Made by a program: the position numbers and the translations under genes | From: Selenomonadaceae bacterium | Lineage (GTDB): Bacteria; Bacillota; Negativicutes; Selenomonadales; Selenomonadaceae | NCBI GenBank assembly: GCA_017406175.1 | Contig: JAFQZB010000229.1 | Span: forward strand, 1-43,641 | DNA: 43,641 nucleotides | Direction of reading: 5' to 3' | In this document: in pieces, positions 17,688 through 27,366 of the stretch | Layout of the letters: the number at the start of each line of letters is the position of its first letter | Numbering within the stretch: the first letter of the stretch is position 1 | The notes under the pieces: model-generated | What the model was told of the DNA's origin: nothing | The model's database searches: none | The model's input: only the letters and a program-made list of their open reading frames with translations

Positions 17688-18509
17688 ATGGAAGTAATCT
17701 TGTCGGAGTATTTGGGATTTTGTTACGGCGTCAAGCGGGCGATAAAAATTGCCAGGGAACACGCGGATGGAAAGAGTTGCACGTTGGGACCGATAATCCA
17801 TAATCCGCAGATGGTAGAGCGACTGAAAGCCGAAGGCGTTGGCTCGGTCGAAGATTTGACGGCGATGAAGGAGGGCACGATAATAATTCGCTCACACGGC
17901 GTAGGACCACAAGTTTACAAGGACGCTGAGGCAAAGGGATTGACAATCGTCGACGCGACTTGTCCACACGTAAAGAAGGCGCAACTATCCGCCAAGGAAC
18001 TCTTGGAAGACGGTCGACAAGTCATAATCATCGGCGAGAGGAATCATCCCGAAGTTAAAAGTATCTTCGAGTGGTCGGACAAGCGAGCAGTTATTCTGGA
18101 GACGGAAGAGGACGCTAAAAACTTCGCGCCCTGCCCAAAGCTCGGAATAGTTTCTCAAACAACCGTGAGCGGCGAGAACTTTGTAAAAATGGTAGCGCAC
18201 CTGCTTAGTAAGTCACAAGACATAAGAATTCTACGAACTATCTGCACAGCAACGGATCAAAGACAATCGGCGGCACTGGAGCTGGCAAGCAAGGTTGATG
18301 TCATGCTGGTAATCGGCGGACGCAACAGCGCAAATACCACGCGGCTTGCTCAGCTCTGCGAAGAGAAATGCCGGACTTACCACATAGAAACAGCGCAGGA
18401 GTTATCGCCTGACTGGTTAGACAAAGCCAACACAGTTGGTATAACAGCCGGAGCCTCAACGCCGGACTGGATTATCGGGGAGGTTTATAAAAAGTGTCAG
18501 AGGATTTGA
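17688..18509 (+). CDS. ispH: 4-Hydroxy-3-methylbut-2-enyl diphosphate reductase
   Basis: Last enzyme of the MEP isoprenoid pathway, an iron-sulfur reductase making IPP and DMAPP. The 273 residues have the three cluster cysteines in LGFCYGVKRAI, DATCPHVKKAQ and ICTATDQRQSA, plus RSHGVGP, the catalytic glutamate in RNHPEV, VSQTTVS, and the end block GITAGASTPDWIIGEV. RBS AGGTGGTAGAGA. Its last 16 bp overlap the start of rpsA, which also uses an RBS within ispH, so the two are translationally coupled. ispH beside or fused to rpsA is a known Firmicutes arrangement; here they are separate proteins in different frames. Confidence 0.97.
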   Translation: MEVILSEYLGFCYGVKRAIKIAREHADGKSCTLGPIIHNPQMVERLKAEGVGSVEDLTAMKEGTIIIRSHGVGPQVYKDAEAKGLTIVDATCPHVKKAQLSAKELLEDGRQVIIIGERNHPEVKSIFEWSDKRAVILETEEDAKNFAPCPKLGIVSQTTVSGENFVKMVAHLLSKSQDIRILRTICTATDQRQSAALELASKVDVMLVIGGRNSANTTRLAQLCEEKCRTYHIETAQELSPDWLDKANTVGITAGASTPDWIIGEVYKKCQRI

Positions 18510-19699
18510 AGAACGAAGAGATGGGTAGTTGGCTTGACGAGGCGGAGAGTTTAAAAGACCTTCAGCCGGGCATGGTAGTAGAAGGCACAGTCGTCTTGGT
18601 CAATCGCGACGAGGCTTACGTCGACATCGGTTATAAGCAGGAGATTGCCATTCCGAAACGTGAATTGGCGATACCCGAACCCGACTCGGCGGAAGATGTC
18701 GTTAAGCAGGGCGACGTTATCAAAGTTTATATCCAAAGTCTTGGCGGCGAAAATGGCGGAGTCTTGTCGAAGGTCAAAGCCGATGCCGAAGTCGTTTGGG
18801 ACGAGTTGCGGGCGATTAAGGCTCACAACGACGACCCCGAAGCTACGGACTTGCAAACGGTCGACGCACGCATTAATAGCGTTGTCAAAGGTGGCTTGTC
18901 GGCTACGGTAAACGGATTGCGCGGTTTTATTCCGGCGTCGCAAATGGAATTGCACTTCGTCAAAGATTTGGGCGTTTATGTCGGGCAGACGGTTAAGGCG
19001 TTGCCGATTGAAATTGAATCGTATAAGCGTCGCCTCGTCCTCAGCCGTCGTCAGCACCTTGAACGCGAACGCGACATTAAGCAAAAAGAAATTTTCAGCA
19101 CACTGCACGAAGGAGATATTCTTAAAGGCACGGTCAAGCGTATTGTCGACTACGGAGCATTTATTGACGTGGGCGGCGTCGACGGGCTGGCGCATATCTC
19201 GGATTTGTCGTGGGAACGCGTCGCGCACCCTTCAGACGTGCTCAAAGTCGGCGAAGAGACCGATGTTTACGTTAAAAACGTCGACCCCGAAGCCCGCAGG
19301 ATTTCTCTTTCCATTAAGCAGACTCAACGCGACCCCTGGCTTGATAGAGCAGAAAATTATCGCGAAGGCGAATTTATCGAAGGCAAAATCGTTAAGCTTG
19401 CGAAATTCGGCGCGTTCATGGAGATTGAGCCGGGATTTGATGGTTTGATTCCTATGGGCGAGCTTAGCGACCACCGCATTGACAACGCGGAAGATGCGGT
19501 TGCCGTCGGCGACATCGTTAAGGTTAAAATCTTGCGCATCGACCTCAAACGCAAACGCATTTCCCTTTCCATTAACCGCGCCCGCCGCGAAGGTGCCCGC
19601 GCAACTTTTAGGCGTTATCAGCCCGCCCCAGTCGAACCAGAAGAAGCACCTAAGACTGAAGAGACGCCTAAAACGGAAGAATCGACCGAAGAACAATAA
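18494..19699 (+). CDS. rpsA: 30S ribosomal protein S1
   Basis: RNA-binding protein with four S1 domains, assisting mRNA binding and translation. The repeats begin near residues 19 (GMVVEGTVV), 105 (VDARINSVVKGGLSATV), 193 (GDILKGTVKRIVDYGAFIDV, DGLAHISDLSW) and 278 (EGKIVKLAKFGAFMEI, DGLIPMGELS). The last two have the canonical acidic/aromatic RNA-contact pattern. The C-terminal tail is acidic with repeated PKTEE units. At 401 residues it is the usual short Firmicutes form rather than the six-domain proteobacterial S1. Start GTG 18494 follows GGGGAGG inside ispH. A strong bidirectional terminator follows. Confidence 0.96.
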   Translation: MSEDLKNEEMGSWLDEAESLKDLQPGMVVEGTVVLVNRDEAYVDIGYKQEIAIPKRELAIPEPDSAEDVVKQGDVIKVYIQSLGGENGGVLSKVKADAEVVWDELRAIKAHNDDPEATDLQTVDARINSVVKGGLSATVNGLRGFIPASQMELHFVKDLGVYVGQTVKALPIEIESYKRRLVLSRRQHLERERDIKQKEIFSTLHEGDILKGTVKRIVDYGAFIDVGGVDGLAHISDLSWERVAHPSDVLKVGEETDVYVKNVDPEARRISLSIKQTQRDPWLDRAENYREGEFIEGKIVKLAKFGAFMEIEPGFDGLIPMGELSDHRIDNAEDAVAVGDIVKVKILRIDLKRKRISLSINRARREGARATFRRYQPAPVEPEEAPKTEETPKTEESTEEQ

Positions 19700-21896: not shown

Positions 21897-21917
21897 GCCC
21901 CCGATTTTTTTGGGGGG
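21888..21917 (-). terminator. Terminator after aroK
   Basis: Minus strand CCCCC (21916-21912), 9-nt loop, GGGGG (21902-21898), C, then nine T. Strong; it also has a T-rich flank on the plus strand. Confidence 0.88.
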
Positions 21918-21927
21918 TGTTTTTTGT

Positions 21928-22449
21928 TTAACTTCTGAACTGGCGCAAGTATTTGCAGATGTCGTCGATGATTTGGAGCGGCGACCATTCCGTCGTATCG
22001 ACTTGATAATCTGCGCGGTCGTAAAATTGTTTGCGTTCGGCGAGGAGGCGTTTAATCGTCTCAAGGCGTTGATTGCCGCCGCCGTCTAGGACTGGACGTT
22101 CACCGCGTCGCGCCGTCCGATTGAAAATTTCTTCAGGCTCGGTCGTCAGGCAAATCAGCACGCCCGAACTTTTCAGCAATCGCAAATTTTCTTCGTCTTT
22201 AATGGTGCCGCCGCCAGTCGCAATGACTAATCCGCGTCGTTCGCTGAGTTCTTTGACGGCGAGGCGTTCGAGTTCGCGGAAGTGTTCTTCGCCGTAGCGT
22301 TCAAAGATTTTCGGAATGGACAGCTTAGTTTCGTCCTCAATTTTTTTGTCAATGTCGACGAACGGACGCCCAAGCCGCGTCGCCAAAAGTTTTCCAAGGC
22401 TCGTTTTGCCGGTGCCCATAAAGCCGGTTAATATAACGTTGTCTCTCAT
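21928..22449 (-). CDS. aroK: Shikimate kinase
   Basis: ATP-dependent phosphorylation of shikimate at the 3-hydroxyl. The 173 residues are of family length, with Walker A GFMGTGKTSLGK (residues 9-20), the shikimate-binding aspartate and arginine in FVDIDKKIE and HFRELERLA, IATGGGTI, and the lid arginine in RTARRGERPVL. The ATG overlaps the aroC stop (ATGA), so the pair is coupled. Followed by a strong terminator. Confidence 0.97.
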   Translation of the reverse strand: MRDNVILTGFMGTGKTSLGKLLATRLGRPFVDIDKKIEDETKLSIPKIFERYGEEHFRELERLAVKELSERRGLVIATGGGTIKDEENLRLLKSSGVLICLTTEPEEIFNRTARRGERPVLDGGGNQRLETIKRLLAERKQFYDRADYQVDTTEWSPLQIIDDICKYLRQFRS

Positions 22450-23525
22450 AAGCCGAAATCCTCTGCAAGTCGTGCGCGATAATTTTTTAAGTTAGCAAGG
22501 GTATCGCACAGGGCATCGCCGCCGAATTTATCAACGAAGGCGTCCGCCGTGACGATAGCCGCCATAGCCTCGCCGACGACGCAAGCCGCCCATATCGCGC
22601 AGGTGTCTGAACGTTCTTTGCTCGCCGTCGTAGCAATTTTCGTGGCAATGTCGACGGTTTGCAATGGTTTCATCAAAGTTGGAATAGGTTTCATCGCCGC
22701 CCGAATGATTAAAGGCTCGCCGTTAGTCATACCGCCTTCAAAACCGCCGGCGCGATTAGTTTTGCGGAAAATTTTGCCGTCACTGATAAAAATTTCGTCG
22801 TGAACTTCGCTACCGAGTTTTTTAGCGTTTAAAAAGCCGTCGCCGAGTTCGACAGCCTTAATTGCCTGAATTGACATGAATGCCGCCGCAAATTTCGCGT
22901 CAAGCCGCCTATCCCACTGAATATGACTGCCCAAACCGGCTGGGACGCCCGAAATTTTAATTTCAAAGACGCCGCCGACGGTATCGCCCAAAGATTTTGC
23001 CTCGTCGATACGGTCTTTAATCTTATCGCCACACACGCCGCCCACGCTTAGGACTTCGCCGGAGATGTTTACGCCGCAATTTTTTAAGAAAATCTTGCAT
23101 AATGCGCCCGCGGCGACTCTCATAGTAGTTTCGCGAGCACTTGAGCGTTCTAAAATGTCGCGAACGTCCGAACGAGCGAATTTAGCCGCGCCAATCAAGT
23201 CAGCGTGCCCTGGGCGGGCGTTTGTGACTTTTTCGCCGGAAATTTTTCCTTCTGGACTCATTTTATCCGCCCAATTCTGCCAATCGCGATTTTCGACGCT
23301 CAAAGTTATCGGAGAGCCGATAGTTTCGCCGAAACGAATGCCAGAAATAAAATTTACGCGGTCGGATTCGATTTTCATGCGTCCGCCGCGCCCATAGCCG
23401 CTTTGACGGCGTTTAAGTTCCGCATTTACGAATTCGCTAGAGACTTTGACGCCAGCGGGCAGTCCTTCCAATATGCAAACCAATCGCGAGCCGTGACTTT
23501 CGCCGCCGCTAATGTATCTAACCAT
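22446..23525 (-). CDS. aroC: Chorismate synthase
   Basis: Final shikimate step: EPSP to chorismate with reduced FMN. The 359 residues begin MVRYISGGESHGSRLVCILE and contain RRQSGYGRGGRM, GSPITLSVENRDW, RPGHADLIGAAKF, RSSARETTMRVAAGALC, and the late block IATTASKERSDTCAIWAACV. The ATG at 23525 has GGGGTGATTTG upstream; a TTG one codon earlier is in frame but unlikely. It lies 12 bp after the SDR stop on the same strand, so it is probably part of the transcript that begins at the acyltransferase gene. Confidence 0.97.
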   Translation of the reverse strand: MVRYISGGESHGSRLVCILEGLPAGVKVSSEFVNAELKRRQSGYGRGGRMKIESDRVNFISGIRFGETIGSPITLSVENRDWQNWADKMSPEGKISGEKVTNARPGHADLIGAAKFARSDVRDILERSSARETTMRVAAGALCKIFLKNCGVNISGEVLSVGGVCGDKIKDRIDEAKSLGDTVGGVFEIKISGVPAGLGSHIQWDRRLDAKFAAAFMSIQAIKAVELGDGFLNAKKLGSEVHDEIFISDGKIFRKTNRAGGFEGGMTNGEPLIIRAAMKPIPTLMKPLQTVDIATKIATTASKERSDTCAIWAACVVGEAMAAIVTADAFVDKFGGDALCDTLANLKNYRARLAEDFGL

Positions 23526-23537
23526 CAAATCACCCCG

Positions 23538-24317
23538 TCAAGCATAAGAACCGACGATATAACCGCCGTCCACGAAAAAATTTTGCCCCGTAATCCAGGC
23601 GGCGCGGTCGCTCAGCAAAAATAAAATCATTCCGGCGACGTCGCGAGCCGTTCCCAAGCCTAGCAGGTGTCGCGAAATAATTTCTTCGCTCGGCGCGTAA
23701 AGTTCGTTAGTCATCATCTCCGTTTTGACTATCGCGGGTGCCACAGAGTTTATCCGGTGCTTGCCGCGAATGATTTCCGCCGCGAACGATTTAACCGCCG
23801 ATTGCACAGCCGCCTTTGCCGCCGAGTATGCAAACAGACTTTTGCCGCTGAAGTCGCCCGCAATCGAACTCATCAGCACGAACGACCCGCCGCCGTCCGA
23901 AAATTTTTTGCGCGTCGCCGTCTGCACGAAGTTGACTGCGCCCCAAAAGCTCGTTGCGAAAATTTTATGGGCAAGGCTCTCGTCGAAGGAATTAAGCGGC
24001 GTCAAGCCCCAAATGCCAGCCGTGTACACGCCGCCATTAATCCGACCGACAACGCTCGTGAAGTTCTCCAAGACCCGCGACCAATCGTCAGCCGTCGCCG
24101 CGAGAACGTCTAGTTGCTCCGTAAAGATTCGCGGCGGGTGCTTGATTAAACTTATCGGCGAACACCTCTTAAGCTCGTCGAGGCGTTCCAAGTTCCGACC
24201 GATTGCCAAGACGTTCGCGCCGCTCTGTGATAACTCCAAAGCCGTTTGACGACCAATGCCACTCGACGCGCCGACTACTACAAAATTTTTTCCGCTGAAA
24301 TCAAATTTCACACTCAT
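23538..24317 (-). CDS. Short-chain dehydrogenase/reductase of the ACP/UxaA cluster
   Basis: 259-residue classical SDR, NAD(P)-dependent. The cofactor motif is VVVGASSGIGRQ (about residues 11-22), the catalytic Ser lies in VLMSSIAGDF, the catalytic YxxxK is YSAAK, and the C-terminal GQNFFVDGGY is typical. It resembles 3-oxoacyl-ACP reductase-like SDRs, which is notable beside an acyl carrier protein, but substrate cannot be set from sequence. The start at 24317 is set by GGGGAGAACCTTTG, overlapping the end of the dehydratase large-subunit gene by 14 residues out of frame? No: the stop of that gene is at 24331, so there is a 13-bp gap. aroC follows after 12 bp. Confidence 0.88.
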   Translation of the reverse strand: MSVKFDFSGKNFVVVGASSGIGRQTALELSQSGANVLAIGRNLERLDELKRCSPISLIKHPPRIFTEQLDVLAATADDWSRVLENFTSVVGRINGGVYTAGIWGLTPLNSFDESLAHKIFATSFWGAVNFVQTATRKKFSDGGGSFVLMSSIAGDFSGKSLFAYSAAKAAVQSAVKSFAAEIIRGKHRINSVAPAIVKTEMMTNELYAPSEEIISRHLLGLGTARDVAGMILFLLSDRAAWITGQNFFVDGGYIVGSYA

Positions 24318-24330
24318 CAAAGGTTCTCCC

Positions 24331-25491
24331 CTAAACGAATCTGCACACGTGGTCAACGGCGACATCAGAGAAGCCATAAGCCTCCGCCTTAGTCAGCCGC
24401 CCGTTTAACACGTCTTGAACTTTATCAAGCAACAAGTCGCCCGCACCGTCAATCGTCAACGCGCCGTCGATTATGCCGCTCAAGTCCACGTCGATATTGT
24501 CTTCCATCCAAGAATACGTTTGGGCATTGGCAGTGACCTTGAGGACAGGAACAATCGCGTTGCCCGTGGGAGTGCCGCGCCCCGTCGTGAAGATTATCGC
24601 ATTGCAACCCGCCGCCGCCATCGAAGTAACCGACGATATATCATAGCCCGCCGTGTCCATGACGATTGCCCCGCGCTTAGTCGGTCGCTCCGCCTGATTC
24701 AAGACCTCGACAATAGGACGCGTGCCGCCTTTGCGAATACAGCCTAAGCTTTTCTCGTCGATAGTCGACAAGCCGCCGAGTTTATTGCCGGGCGTCGGCT
24801 GTCCTGCTCTGCAATCTTGACCCGCCGCCTTGAGATGTGCTTCATAGTCCGCACAAATTTGGATTATCCGGTTGTGAAGTTCAGGAGTCGCCGCACGTTT
24901 GGCAAGGACATGTTCGCCGCCAATCCACTCGATTGACTCGCTCATCAAAGTCGACGCGCCCAGGTCAACGAACTTATCGCTGAGCTTGCCGACCGCAGGA
25001 TTAGACGCAATGCCCGAAGTCGCGTCCGAGCCGCCGCACTCAATGCCCAGTAGCAGTTCCGATATATCGCACGGTTCTTTCTGTTGAAGATTAGCCGCCG
25101 CCGACAAGTCACGAGCCGCACGAACCGCCTTTGCTATCGTCTTGAGGGTGCCGCCCTCCTCTTGAATGCCGAACGACACGACGGGCTTGCTAGTCATCGC
25201 CTTAATCTTGTCGCGTAGTTTGTCATGAGGAACCGTTTCACAGCCCAGACCGATTATCACGACGCCGAAGACGTTAGGATTGCACGCAAAGCCCGTTAAG
25301 ACTTTTTGCGACAACGCAGTATTCGCCGCCACGTCTGAACAGCCCGTGTTAAAAATTATGTTGACTGCGCCGCGAACCTGACTTGCCACAATCCGAGCCG
25401 TCTCCGAGCCGCAAGCACACGTAGGAAGAATCAAGACGTGATTGCGAATGCCAGCTCGACCGTCCGCCCGCTTATAGCCGTAGAAATTCAT
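24331..25491 (-). CDS. UxaA-family dehydratase/lyase, large (C-terminal) subunit
   Basis: 386-residue UxaA C-terminal-type protein, a family that includes altronate and galactarate dehydratases and the beta subunit of sulfolactate sulfo-lyase. Seen: GYKRADGRAGIRNHVLILPT at the start, FNTGCSDV, VIIGLGCETVP, GIECGGSDATSGIASNPA, IRKGGTRPI, MDTAGYDISSVTSMAAAGCN and IFTTGRGTPTGNAIVPVLKV. Several cysteines probably bind iron. Fused homologues carry an N-terminal SAF domain; here that part is the next upstream gene, overlapping by ATGA. The substrate is probably a small hydroxy- or sugar acid but is unknown. Context with an ACP and SDR is not the usual hexuronate catabolic setting. Confidence 0.88.
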   Translation of the reverse strand: MNFYGYKRADGRAGIRNHVLILPTCACGSETARIVASQVRGAVNIIFNTGCSDVAANTALSQKVLTGFACNPNVFGVVIIGLGCETVPHDKLRDKIKAMTSKPVVSFGIQEEGGTLKTIAKAVRAARDLSAAANLQQKEPCDISELLLGIECGGSDATSGIASNPAVGKLSDKFVDLGASTLMSESIEWIGGEHVLAKRAATPELHNRIIQICADYEAHLKAAGQDCRAGQPTPGNKLGGLSTIDEKSLGCIRKGGTRPIVEVLNQAERPTKRGAIVMDTAGYDISSVTSMAAAGCNAIIFTTGRGTPTGNAIVPVLKVTANAQTYSWMEDNIDVDLSGIIDGALTIDGAGDLLLDKVQDVLNGRLTKAEAYGFSDVAVDHVCRFV

Positions 25492-25775
25492 CTAATCATC
25501 TCGCTTTCGTAATCGCGTGGCACGGAGAAAATATTTTCGTGCGACACCCACGCGCCCTTAGCAATATCCTTTGACGCCTCGCCGATTATCTCCCCGTACT
25601 TGAAAACTTTGTCGCCCTTAGCAATGTCCTTTAACGCGACCTTATGCCAAATGGGAACGTTCTCGACGCAATGAACCGAACCGCCGCCGAGCACTTGAAT
25701 CATATCGCCCGCCTTCGCCGCCGCCGTACAAGTCGCCACGTTGTCTTTATCGTCAAGCAAGATTGCGTTCGTCAT
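25488..25775 (-). CDS. UxaA-family dehydratase, small (SAF domain) subunit
   Basis: 95-residue SAF-domain protein equivalent to the N-terminal part of altronate dehydratase or the alpha subunit of sulfolactate sulfo-lyase. It has the family pattern VPIWHKVALKDIAKGDKVFK followed by YGEIIGEASKDIAKGAWVSH. The histidine in HKVAL and a later one are candidate metal ligands. Its stop overlaps the large-subunit start, and its own start overlaps the ACP stop by 4 bp, so ACP, small and large subunits are tightly coupled. Confidence 0.88.
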   Translation of the reverse strand: MTNAILLDDKDNVATCTAAAKAGDMIQVLGGGSVHCVENVPIWHKVALKDIAKGDKVFKYGEIIGEASKDIAKGAWVSHENIFSVPRDYESEMIR

Positions 25776-25996
25776 GCTTTGCCCTCCGCCAGCTTGAATA
25801 AGTCTTCGACAGTCAACGCGGCTTTAATCTGTTCAGGGTCGAGGCGCCGATTGAGTGTCGAATTGCAGAACGAGAAGAACGACACCATGCTAAGCGAGTC
25901 CCAATCCTCAACGTCCGCCAGCTTCGTTGATAACTTTAATTCGGCGTCCGTGTCCATTAACTCCGCGAGTTTTTTAACGAATTCTTCTGCTGTCAT
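25772..25996 (-). CDS. Acyl carrier protein
   Basis: 74-residue acyl carrier-like protein: acidic, helical, with the phosphopantetheine attachment serine in DVEDWDSLSMVSF (DSL motif). The start at 25996 is set by AAGGAGGAAAGATTA. It differs from the housekeeping AcpP (no EEFD or DSLDTVELV block) and is embedded among modification genes, so it is probably a dedicated carrier. No 4'-phosphopantetheinyl transferase, ligase or ketosynthase is in the window to load it. It lies 13 bp after the acyltransferase gene. Confidence 0.88.
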   Translation of the reverse strand: MTAEEFVKKLAELMDTDAELKLSTKLADVEDWDSLSMVSFFSFCNSTLNRRLDPEQIKAALTVEDLFKLAEGKA

Positions 25997-26009
25997 TAAT
26001 CTTTCCTCC

Positions 26010-26645
26010 TTAAATTTCGACGGCGGGATTGCCAAAGACAGTTGCACCCGCCCGAATCTTTTTCAAAACGACACAACCCGCCCCGACCGTCGCACAGTCC
26101 TCGACCTTTGCTTTGGGCAAGATGATTGCGCCCGTGCCAAGGAAGACCTCCGAGCCGACGCGAGCCTTGCCGGCAATGTTGGCTTGCGGCATGACGCAAC
26201 TAAACTTCCCAATCGTCGCATCGTGCCCGACAATCGTCAGCGCATTCAACGCCGCGAAGTCATCAACCGCCGCCCTGTCGCTTATGCCGACGTAAGGGGA
26301 GACTATCACGCCGCGTCCGAGCCGAGCCGTCGGGATAATCTTCGCGAGCTTGCTGATTAGGTTAATGAACTCTGCGCCGCGAGCCGAAATCTTTTCCACG
26401 AGATGACGACGAACCTTAGGAGAACCAACCGCACATGTAAAAACGTCGTCCGCGCAAATTTGGTAGCCGTCCACGTCGCCGAGCACTTCAGCGGGCAAAA
26501 GCTCATACTCCGCCGCCGCAAGCTTAACATCACCGTCGAGGAAACCTTTAATCGTCCAGTCGACGCCGTAGCCAATGGAGTCCTTCGCGTGCCAATACAC
26601 TTCGCGAGCAAAGCCGCCGACGCCGATTATTATCAAGTTCTTCAT
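26010..26645 (-). CDS. NeuD/PglD-like sugar O/N-acyltransferase
   Basis: 211 residues with the two-part NeuD/PglD build: a Rossmann-like N-terminal domain beginning MKNLIIIGVGGFAREVYWHA, and a left-handed beta-helix from about residue 105 made of hexapeptide repeats (ARLGRGVIVSPYVGISDRAA, ANIAGKARVGSEVFLGTGA). NALTIVGHDATIG contains the likely catalytic histidine. The ending GNPAVEI is also typical. These enzymes transfer acetyl from CoA to sugars such as sialic acid or bacillosamine precursors; an ACP-linked donor is conceivable here given the next gene. RBS GGGTGATGATTC, with a promoter just upstream; first gene of the long minus-strand unit. Confidence 0.9.
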   Translation of the reverse strand: MKNLIIIGVGGFAREVYWHAKDSIGYGVDWTIKGFLDGDVKLAAAEYELLPAEVLGDVDGYQICADDVFTCAVGSPKVRRHLVEKISARGAEFINLISKLAKIIPTARLGRGVIVSPYVGISDRAAVDDFAALNALTIVGHDATIGKFSCVMPQANIAGKARVGSEVFLGTGAIILPKAKVEDCATVGAGCVVLKKIRAGATVFGNPAVEI

Positions 26646-26664: not shown

Positions 26665-26673
26665 ATTATAGCA
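26665..26673 (-). promoter_or_regulatory. Extended -10 promoter of the acyltransferase/ACP/UxaA/SDR/aro unit
   Basis: Minus strand TGCTATAAT (26673-26665) followed by CGCGGCGGG, 19 bp before the first ATG and directly after the T-run of the terminator at 26676-26698. Confidence 0.65.
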
Positions 26674-26709: not shown

Positions 26710-27366
26710 TCATTCCTTGAAGACTTTCTTAACGACGAAATGAGTTACCACCGCAAAGAACGTGATACTGCCGACGAGCAAGAAGGCAAACATTGGCGCG
26801 GGCAAATCGGTCGCTGGCGTCGAGAAAATGTGCTTCATTAGGATTCGGTCGAAGAAACGATTCAAGAACAGACCCACGACGCCGAACGCCGCCACGGTAA
26901 AAACTATCGCGTCGAAGACAATTTTCCAACGCTTAAAGAATTCTTCTGCTCTCAATAGCCTTAGTACTTTCTGCCTAAGTTCGCGCCCATGAAGTCCGAT
27001 ATGCATTCCGATTAAGATTGTCATGATGTAAGGCGATGAGGTGTGCAAGTTGTGAATTGTCATGTTGCGCCGCAGTATTGCGTTCGCGAGGTCGGGGCAA
27101 AGGTAATTTGATTGACATAGGCCCGTAAGCAAAATTAAAAGCGTGCAGAGTGCTAAGGCTAGGTTCACTTCGATAGCAAAAAATTTCCGCGTCGTTATTT
27201 TGTAGGTCAGCGCGATGAGCCGCTTAAAGTTTATGGCGAAGTGCACGAGGATTGCCGCCACCAATGTCACGCCTAGGATTTCATGAAGCTCCTTCGGTAG
27301 GTAGTTAAAGCTAAGCTCCGCGACGAACAGCGCGACTAATACCGCGTCGATTGCAAGGCGTATCAT
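26710..27366 (-). CDS. DUF4405 / cytochrome b-like membrane protein
   Basis: 218-residue integral membrane protein with about five hydrophobic segments. Paired histidines sit at membrane edges: H in LHEILGVTL and in LVHFAINFKR early, IHNLHTSSPY and GMHIGLHGRELRQK later. This resembles DUF4405 and cytochrome b561-type proteins, suggesting two hemes and a role in transmembrane electron transfer. Heme binding is inferred from the histidine pattern only. The start overlaps the dapB stop (ATGA). No partner oxidoreductase is adjacent; the Tat-exported flavoprotein at 14.7 kb is a conceivable but distant partner. Confidence 0.8.
   Translation of the reverse strand: MIRLAIDAVLVALFVAELSFNYLPKELHEILGVTLVAAILVHFAINFKRLIALTYKITTRKFFAIEVNLALALCTLLILLTGLCQSNYLCPDLANAILRRNMTIHNLHTSSPYIMTILIGMHIGLHGRELRQKVLRLLRAEEFFKRWKIVFDAIVFTVAAFGVVGLFLNRFFDRILMKHIFSTPATDLPAPMFAFLLVGSITFFAVVTHFVVKKVFKE

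Follow-up and report, generated by a model that had tools for sequence, protein, structure and literature searches.

Why does a split sugar-acid dehydratase of the UxaA type lie between the genes for an acyl carrier protein (ACP) and a short-chain dehydrogenase/reductase (SDR)? This arrangement is found in a 43,641-nucleotide stretch of DNA (contig JAFQZB010000229.1, our C178), which in its full length is called the window. The host is a rumen Quinella, represented by a metagenome-assembled genome (MAG) of 3.5 Mb that is 96% complete and 8% contaminated. The large UxaA subunit is 98% identical to that of Quinella sp. 1Q5, and the nearest named relatives are rumen Quinella species. Our overall reading, held with slightly better than even confidence, is that a NeuD-type acyltransferase, the ACP, and the SDR form a module for hydroxyacylation of a surface sugar, and that UxaA is a captured accessory.

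The Core of the Cassette

Head to tail on the minus strand (26645-21928), the genes encode the NeuD-type acyltransferase, the ACP, the small UxaA subunit (SAF), the large UxaA subunit with the GD_AH_second and GD_AH_C domains (UxaC), the SDR, and then AroC and AroK. There are 4-base overlaps between ACP and SAF, SAF and UxaC, and aroC and aroK, and a gap of about 13 bases separates UxaC from the SDR gene. A sequence-only reading of the window had proposed five coupled genes, from the acyltransferase to the SDR. All five are present, with overlapping or short junctions. They occupy 23538-26645; the range first given, 22446-26645, takes in aroC too.

The core of the cassette is NeuD-ACP-SDR. One relative (G085) has dapB followed by NeuD (82% identity), ACP (75%), SDR (89%), aroC, and aroK, and exactly the SAF and UxaC pair is missing. 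The DNA alignment to the window picks up both sides of the missing pair at about 80% identity. No UxaA was found at this site or elsewhere in the G085 assembly. NeuD-ACP-SDR without UxaA is also present in G074 and G061, and the G061 copy lies within a polysaccharide-export locus. UxaA was probably lost in G074 while the module was kept, because the SDR tree places G074 with the UxaA-bearing G114 and G104 (99/99). Since relatives keep the operon without it, UxaA appears to be accessory rather than required.

In other relatives, a ketoacyl-ACP synthase III (KASIII) takes the place between ACP and SDR. NeuD, ACP, KASIII, and SDR were found together in G058, G076, G088-G091, and G098. In G084, ACP-KASIII-SDR is present with NeuD on another contig and without glycan-gene neighbors. 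Where the flanks were read, most KASIII-type cassettes sit among genes for glycosyltransferases, UDP-galactopyranose mutase (glf), or Wzm/Wzt-type genes (loci L113-L118). Elsewhere in the family, ACP-KAS-SDR is repeated in glycan regions, and one locus (L207) reads NeuD-KAS-SDR-ACP-KAS. There is no ketoacyl-ACP synthase in the window operon. In G078, where UxaA is absent, an Rpn-type nuclease/transposase-like gene (L112:4538-5368) lies between ACP and SDR.

The acyltransferase (211 aa; 26010..26645, minus strand) is of the NeuD/PglD/VioB sugar N-acyltransferase type, as had been proposed. It matches TIGR03570 (NeuD/PglB/VioB) at 161.3 bits, just over the cut-off of 160.8, as well as PF17836 (PglD_N) and PF00132 (Hexapep). 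Its nearest solved relative is VioB (7txp), followed by PglD and PerB. The next gene product (74 aa; 25772..25996, minus strand) scores only 14 bits against Pfam PP-binding, under the cut-off of 20.8. Despite this score, its alignment and model indicate that it is a true, stand-alone, dedicated ACP, which agrees with the sequence-only reading. The WDSLS motif is invariant in the alignment of 13 relatives. The AlphaFold model has a predicted local distance difference test (pLDDT) score of 91, and its Foldseek matches are almost exclusively ACPs (best E 0.017, probability 1.00). A second, stronger-scoring ACP is encoded elsewhere in the host genome (contig C228) and could serve fatty-acid synthesis. 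The SDR (259 aa; 23538..24317, minus strand; PF13561, PF00106) most likely starts at 24317 and is a probable ketoacyl-ACP reductase. Its orthologue directly follows ACP or KASIII in relatives. At E 1e-30, no relative of the SDR came out of a sequence search of the PDB.

Family knowledge and the relatives suggest how these three proteins would probably work together. The ACP would carry a short acyl chain. The SDR would reduce the keto function of this chain to give a hydroxyl, as when acetoacetyl-ACP becomes 3-hydroxybutyryl-ACP. The starting condensation might be carried out by the housekeeping FabH, the dedicated KASIII being gone. An amino sugar nucleotide for a surface glycan would then receive this hydroxyacyl group from the NeuD-type enzyme. 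The acyl-to-sugar pathway that had been suggested is retained here as the best reading of NeuD-ACP-SDR, given the conserved set, the dedicated ACP, and the sugar N-acyltransferase type; what does not stand is UxaA as a necessary part of it.

The UxaA Pair and Its Origin

The small subunit (95 aa; 25488..25775, minus strand) carries a SAF domain (PF08666) and matches the N-terminal part of TIGR03248. The large subunit (386 aa; 24331..25491, minus strand) matches PF20629 with 299.6 bits and PF04295 with 127.8 bits. Pfam identifies these as the two UxaA halves that had been described, and together they have the complete domain set of the UxaA/GarD superfamily. The large subunit matches GarD (6u7l) with an E of 1.1e-56. 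Fused UxaA-type proteins from the same family share about 33-35% identity with it, and the value is about 33% for a fused protein (L155) that adjoins a UxaB-like gene, UxaB being read from the sequence only. In the window, no hexuronate genes were seen near the pair. Cys51, Cys84, Cys152, and Cys251 are kept in 48-50 of 50 sequences and are putative counterparts of the iron-site cysteines Cys134/173/208/276 (PMC6336799). The pair shares SAF, GD_AH_second, GD_AH_C, and probably the conserved cysteines with the altronate, galactarate, and D-arabinonate dehydratases (PMC6336799). Unlike them, it is split over two genes and embedded in an ACP operon. The sulfolactate sulfo-lyase SuyAB is a two-subunit form of the same superfamily, as in the window, but does not retain the four conserved cysteines (PMC6336799). 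Membership in SuyAB was rejected, as the window UxaA keeps Cys51, Cys84, Cys152, and Cys251 and is set apart from SuyAB by that description. A fusion of ACP with UxaA was also considered and rejected; the extended UxaC frames are SAF-UxaC fusions or upstream read-through, and none contains the ACP.

The same UxaA subfamily is found at about 80-85% identity in Clostridia, Synergistota, and Succinivibrionaceae. At these loci outside the genus, a divergent LysR gene lies within 1 kb in 40 of 51 cases. Other neighbors are a CitMHS-type permease (17/41), a PHB-type esterase (16/41), and a Na+:dicarboxylate symporter (7/41), and no ACP was seen. UxaA often stands with the regulator alone, and its product may therefore pass straight into central metabolism. 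At the Quinella loci the context is switched: LysR is found in 0 of 23, and ACP and SDR in 14 of 18 each. In genomes from the family's other genera that encode this UxaA as well as a similar ACP, the two are by coordinates never close together. A single-sequence search of viral contigs gave no relative, and a virus-borne origin was rejected.

The split UxaA would appear to be a catabolic sugar-acid dehydratase from a widespread, normally LysR-linked subfamily. Because the cassette UxaC sequences make up one clade of the genus (98/96) inside this pan-phylum subfamily, they fit a single capture event. UxaA probably entered the space separating the ACP and SDR genes once, by capture in an ancestor belonging to the genus, and at least one lineage has since lost it. 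Co-transcription of UxaA with the module is probable, but the module would not need it.

Conservation in the Genus

The set was followed through 66 genomes of the genus, with the caveats that MAGs are not complete and that the counts depend on the thresholds used. The large UxaA subunit is present in 32 of the 66. Among these 32, ACP was found in 28, SDR in 29, and NeuD in 27; in 24, no more than 1 kb separates UxaA from either ACP or SDR. NeuD and ACP are adjacent in 23 of the 27 UxaA-bearing genomes that have both. The five-gene set therefore recurs in the genus, as would be expected from the sequence-only reading, and its conservation appears to go far beyond chance adjacency. Eight genomes are unlinked. 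Three (G068, G107, and G113) are incomplete or fragmentary cases, and in G103 UxaA is stand-alone and of another lineage. The remaining four (G056, G099, G100, and G102) have all parts, separated in the assembly. NeuD is on a different contig in G062, G066, G069, and G110. A DNA-methyltransferase-like gene lies between ACP and SAF in L033, L040, and L048. It is large, about 910-955 aa, and its insertion between ACP and the UxaA pair (as at L033:5491-8235) was seen in several Quinella genomes.

Weighing the Alternatives

Several points weigh against the module with a captured UxaA. The start and stop codons of UxaA and ACP overlap in many genomes, the LysR neighbor is lost, and linkage to ACP or SDR persists across several chromosomal sites; together these favor a functional link of UxaA to the module. 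A GDP-sugar aminotransferase operon of the host (contig C380), considered as the acceptor pathway, does not track the module. FabG-type models match the SDR only below their cut-offs. No KASIII C-domain was found in the window's own MAG, which leaves this MAG without the assumed FabH donor, perhaps through incompleteness; close relatives do have KASIII. Finally, none of the cassette-bearing genomes was found to combine UxaA with a dedicated KASIII. Since KASIII and UxaA each follow clades, this exclusion may reflect no more than phylogeny.

As in the sequence-only reading, UxaA could instead be a working step that converts a small hydroxy acid by dehydration to a 2-oxo acid, which the SDR reduces, the ACP carries, and NeuD transfers, for example a tetronic acid to a 3-deoxy-tetronyl group. 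The tight junctions, the linkage held in 24 of 32 genomes, and the loss of the LysR neighbor and transporters speak for it. The separation of UxaA and KASIII, as if one had replaced the other, and the known occurrence of ACP-borne acyl groups on surface sugars (PMC6519341) are also in its favor. However, G074, G085, and G061 have NeuD-ACP-SDR with neither UxaA nor a dedicated KASIII, elsewhere KASIII is in the slot, and outside the genus UxaA is catabolic and stand-alone. The AMP (adenosine monophosphate) ligase that might have been expected as a neighbor, or any other acid:ACP ligase, is absent from the operon. The UxaA substrate is probably unchanged, because the large subunit still shares about 82-85% identity with its free-standing catabolic relatives. 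This alternative is considered rather unlikely. A form of it in which UxaA replaced the ketoacyl synthase as acyl source, with a sugar acid turned into a 2-oxo acid, reduced by the SDR, and passed by ACP and NeuD to an amino sugar, appears improbable.

It is about equally doubtful that UxaA is a pure hitch-hiker, an independent catabolic gene with inherited adjacency and no functional coupling, not even shared regulation. The single clade of cassette UxaA, its loss without loss of the module, its catabolic context elsewhere, and the separate contigs of UxaA, ACP, and SDR in G102 and G099 are consistent with this explanation. Against it, the flanks change between genomes while the ACP-UxaA-SDR order mostly stays, and inserts such as the DNA methyltransferase gene split the cassette in a minority only. 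In addition, no UxaA-type catabolic partner genes were seen near UxaA. NeuD might also acetylate from acetyl-CoA only, with ACP and SDR serving another product such as a lipid, and the hydroxyacyl-sugar reading would then be wrong. By their record names, the close characterized relatives VioB, PglD, and PerB are acetyltransferases. Yet the frequent NeuD-ACP adjacency, the polysaccharide-export loci in relatives, and the PglD homologue WfpG, which is predicted to use an ACP-borne acyl group (PMC6519341), make this very unlikely.

Comparison with Known Acylation Systems

In Flavobacterium psychrophilum, the 3,5-dihydroxyhexanoyl R-group on the O-polysaccharide is the proposed product of the wfpC-G set, and WfpG is predicted to draw the acyl group from ACP (PMC6519341). 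The window shares with wfpC-wfpG a PglD-type acyltransferase, a dedicated ACP, and a predicted 3-ketoacyl-ACP reductase side by side. It differs in having the UxaA pair instead of a ketoacyl-ACP synthase, and in lying among housekeeping genes; of the capsule-type neighbors that had been suggested, polysaccharide loci are found only around relatives' cassettes. The relatives G088-G091 and L207 have a synthase, as in wfpC-G, and L207 matches the proposed wfpC-G gene content. The O-antigen 3-hydroxybutanoyl transferases FdhC and QdhC, compared by their description (PMC4869667), place a short hydroxy acid onto an amino sugar, as is proposed for the window module; the part of that description considered here mentions neither a dedicated ACP nor a reductase, unlike in the window. 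In the literature searched, no paper was found that combines altronate dehydratase, ACP, lipopolysaccharide, and acetyltransferase, and the Quinella genome paper has no mention of altronate or dehydratases.

Neighboring Genes and Other Glycan Loci

The chorismate synthase gene aroC (22446..23528, minus strand; PF01264) and the shikimate kinase gene aroK (21928..22449, minus strand; PF01202) appear as downstream passengers. A link of the cassette to shikimate-type acids had been raised and was rejected, as the flanks differ in many genomes. Many related cassettes lack aroC in their neighborhood and adjoin dapB, argC-argJ, minC-minD, or the rapZ-yvcK-whiA group (names from sequence), and the UxaA-less operon of G085 also enters aroC-aroK. 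The linkage appears to be a chromosomal accident.

Upstream of the acyltransferase there is an extended -10 promoter-like site, TGCTATAAT (26665..26673, minus strand), read by consensus only; it is without a good -35 and was not returned by the sigma-70 scan. A terminator-like site (26698-26683; pattern match only) lies upstream of it, and a scan gave a terminator-like hairpin 3' of aroK (21898..21916; consensus only). Because of these flanking sites, the genes from NeuD through aroK could plausibly share a single transcript, although promoter- and terminator-like pattern matches are overall no commoner than in shuffles. A gene for a small membrane protein, perhaps cytochrome b561-like, lies between dapB and the cassette (26710-27366), and both are retained next to the cassette in several genomes. 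Elsewhere in the window (17688-19699), the end of an IspH-like gene overlaps that of an S1-domain (RpsA-like) gene, which follows it without a gap.

The operon on contig C380 was tried as the acceptor pathway and rejected; it looks RfbH/ColD-like, is present in only 14 of 66 genomes, and does not track NeuD. It encodes a 707-aa protein in which a GDP-fucose-synthase-like reductase is fused to an RfbH/ColD-like aminotransferase (L174:4099-6222), the aminotransferase part of which has the homologues in these 14 genomes. The same genome has a separate glycan-like locus on contig C67 (L173:7316-15627) with a DegT aminotransferase, an acyltransferase-like gene, and a second small ACP. A LuxE-like ligase, a LuxC-like gene (by sequence), a FabG-like SDR, transketolase-like halves, and an adenylation-type enzyme are also encoded there.

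Significance

The kind of operon and the logic of O-antigen hydroxyacyl modules are known; in this lineage the UxaA pair has been slipped into the cassette. The locus delimits a small cassette for acyl decoration in a rumen genus that is abundant and uncultured. Nature supplies versions that carry KASIII, UxaA, or neither of the two, which makes the role of the slot enzyme directly testable. A pan-phylum, usually LysR-linked lyase has given up its regulatory neighbor and taken a position within a biosynthetic operon. Should UxaA indeed supply the acyl group, a catabolic lyase would have been rewired to make a new surface acyl group, and biosynthesis would be added to the roles of a catabolic enzyme family.

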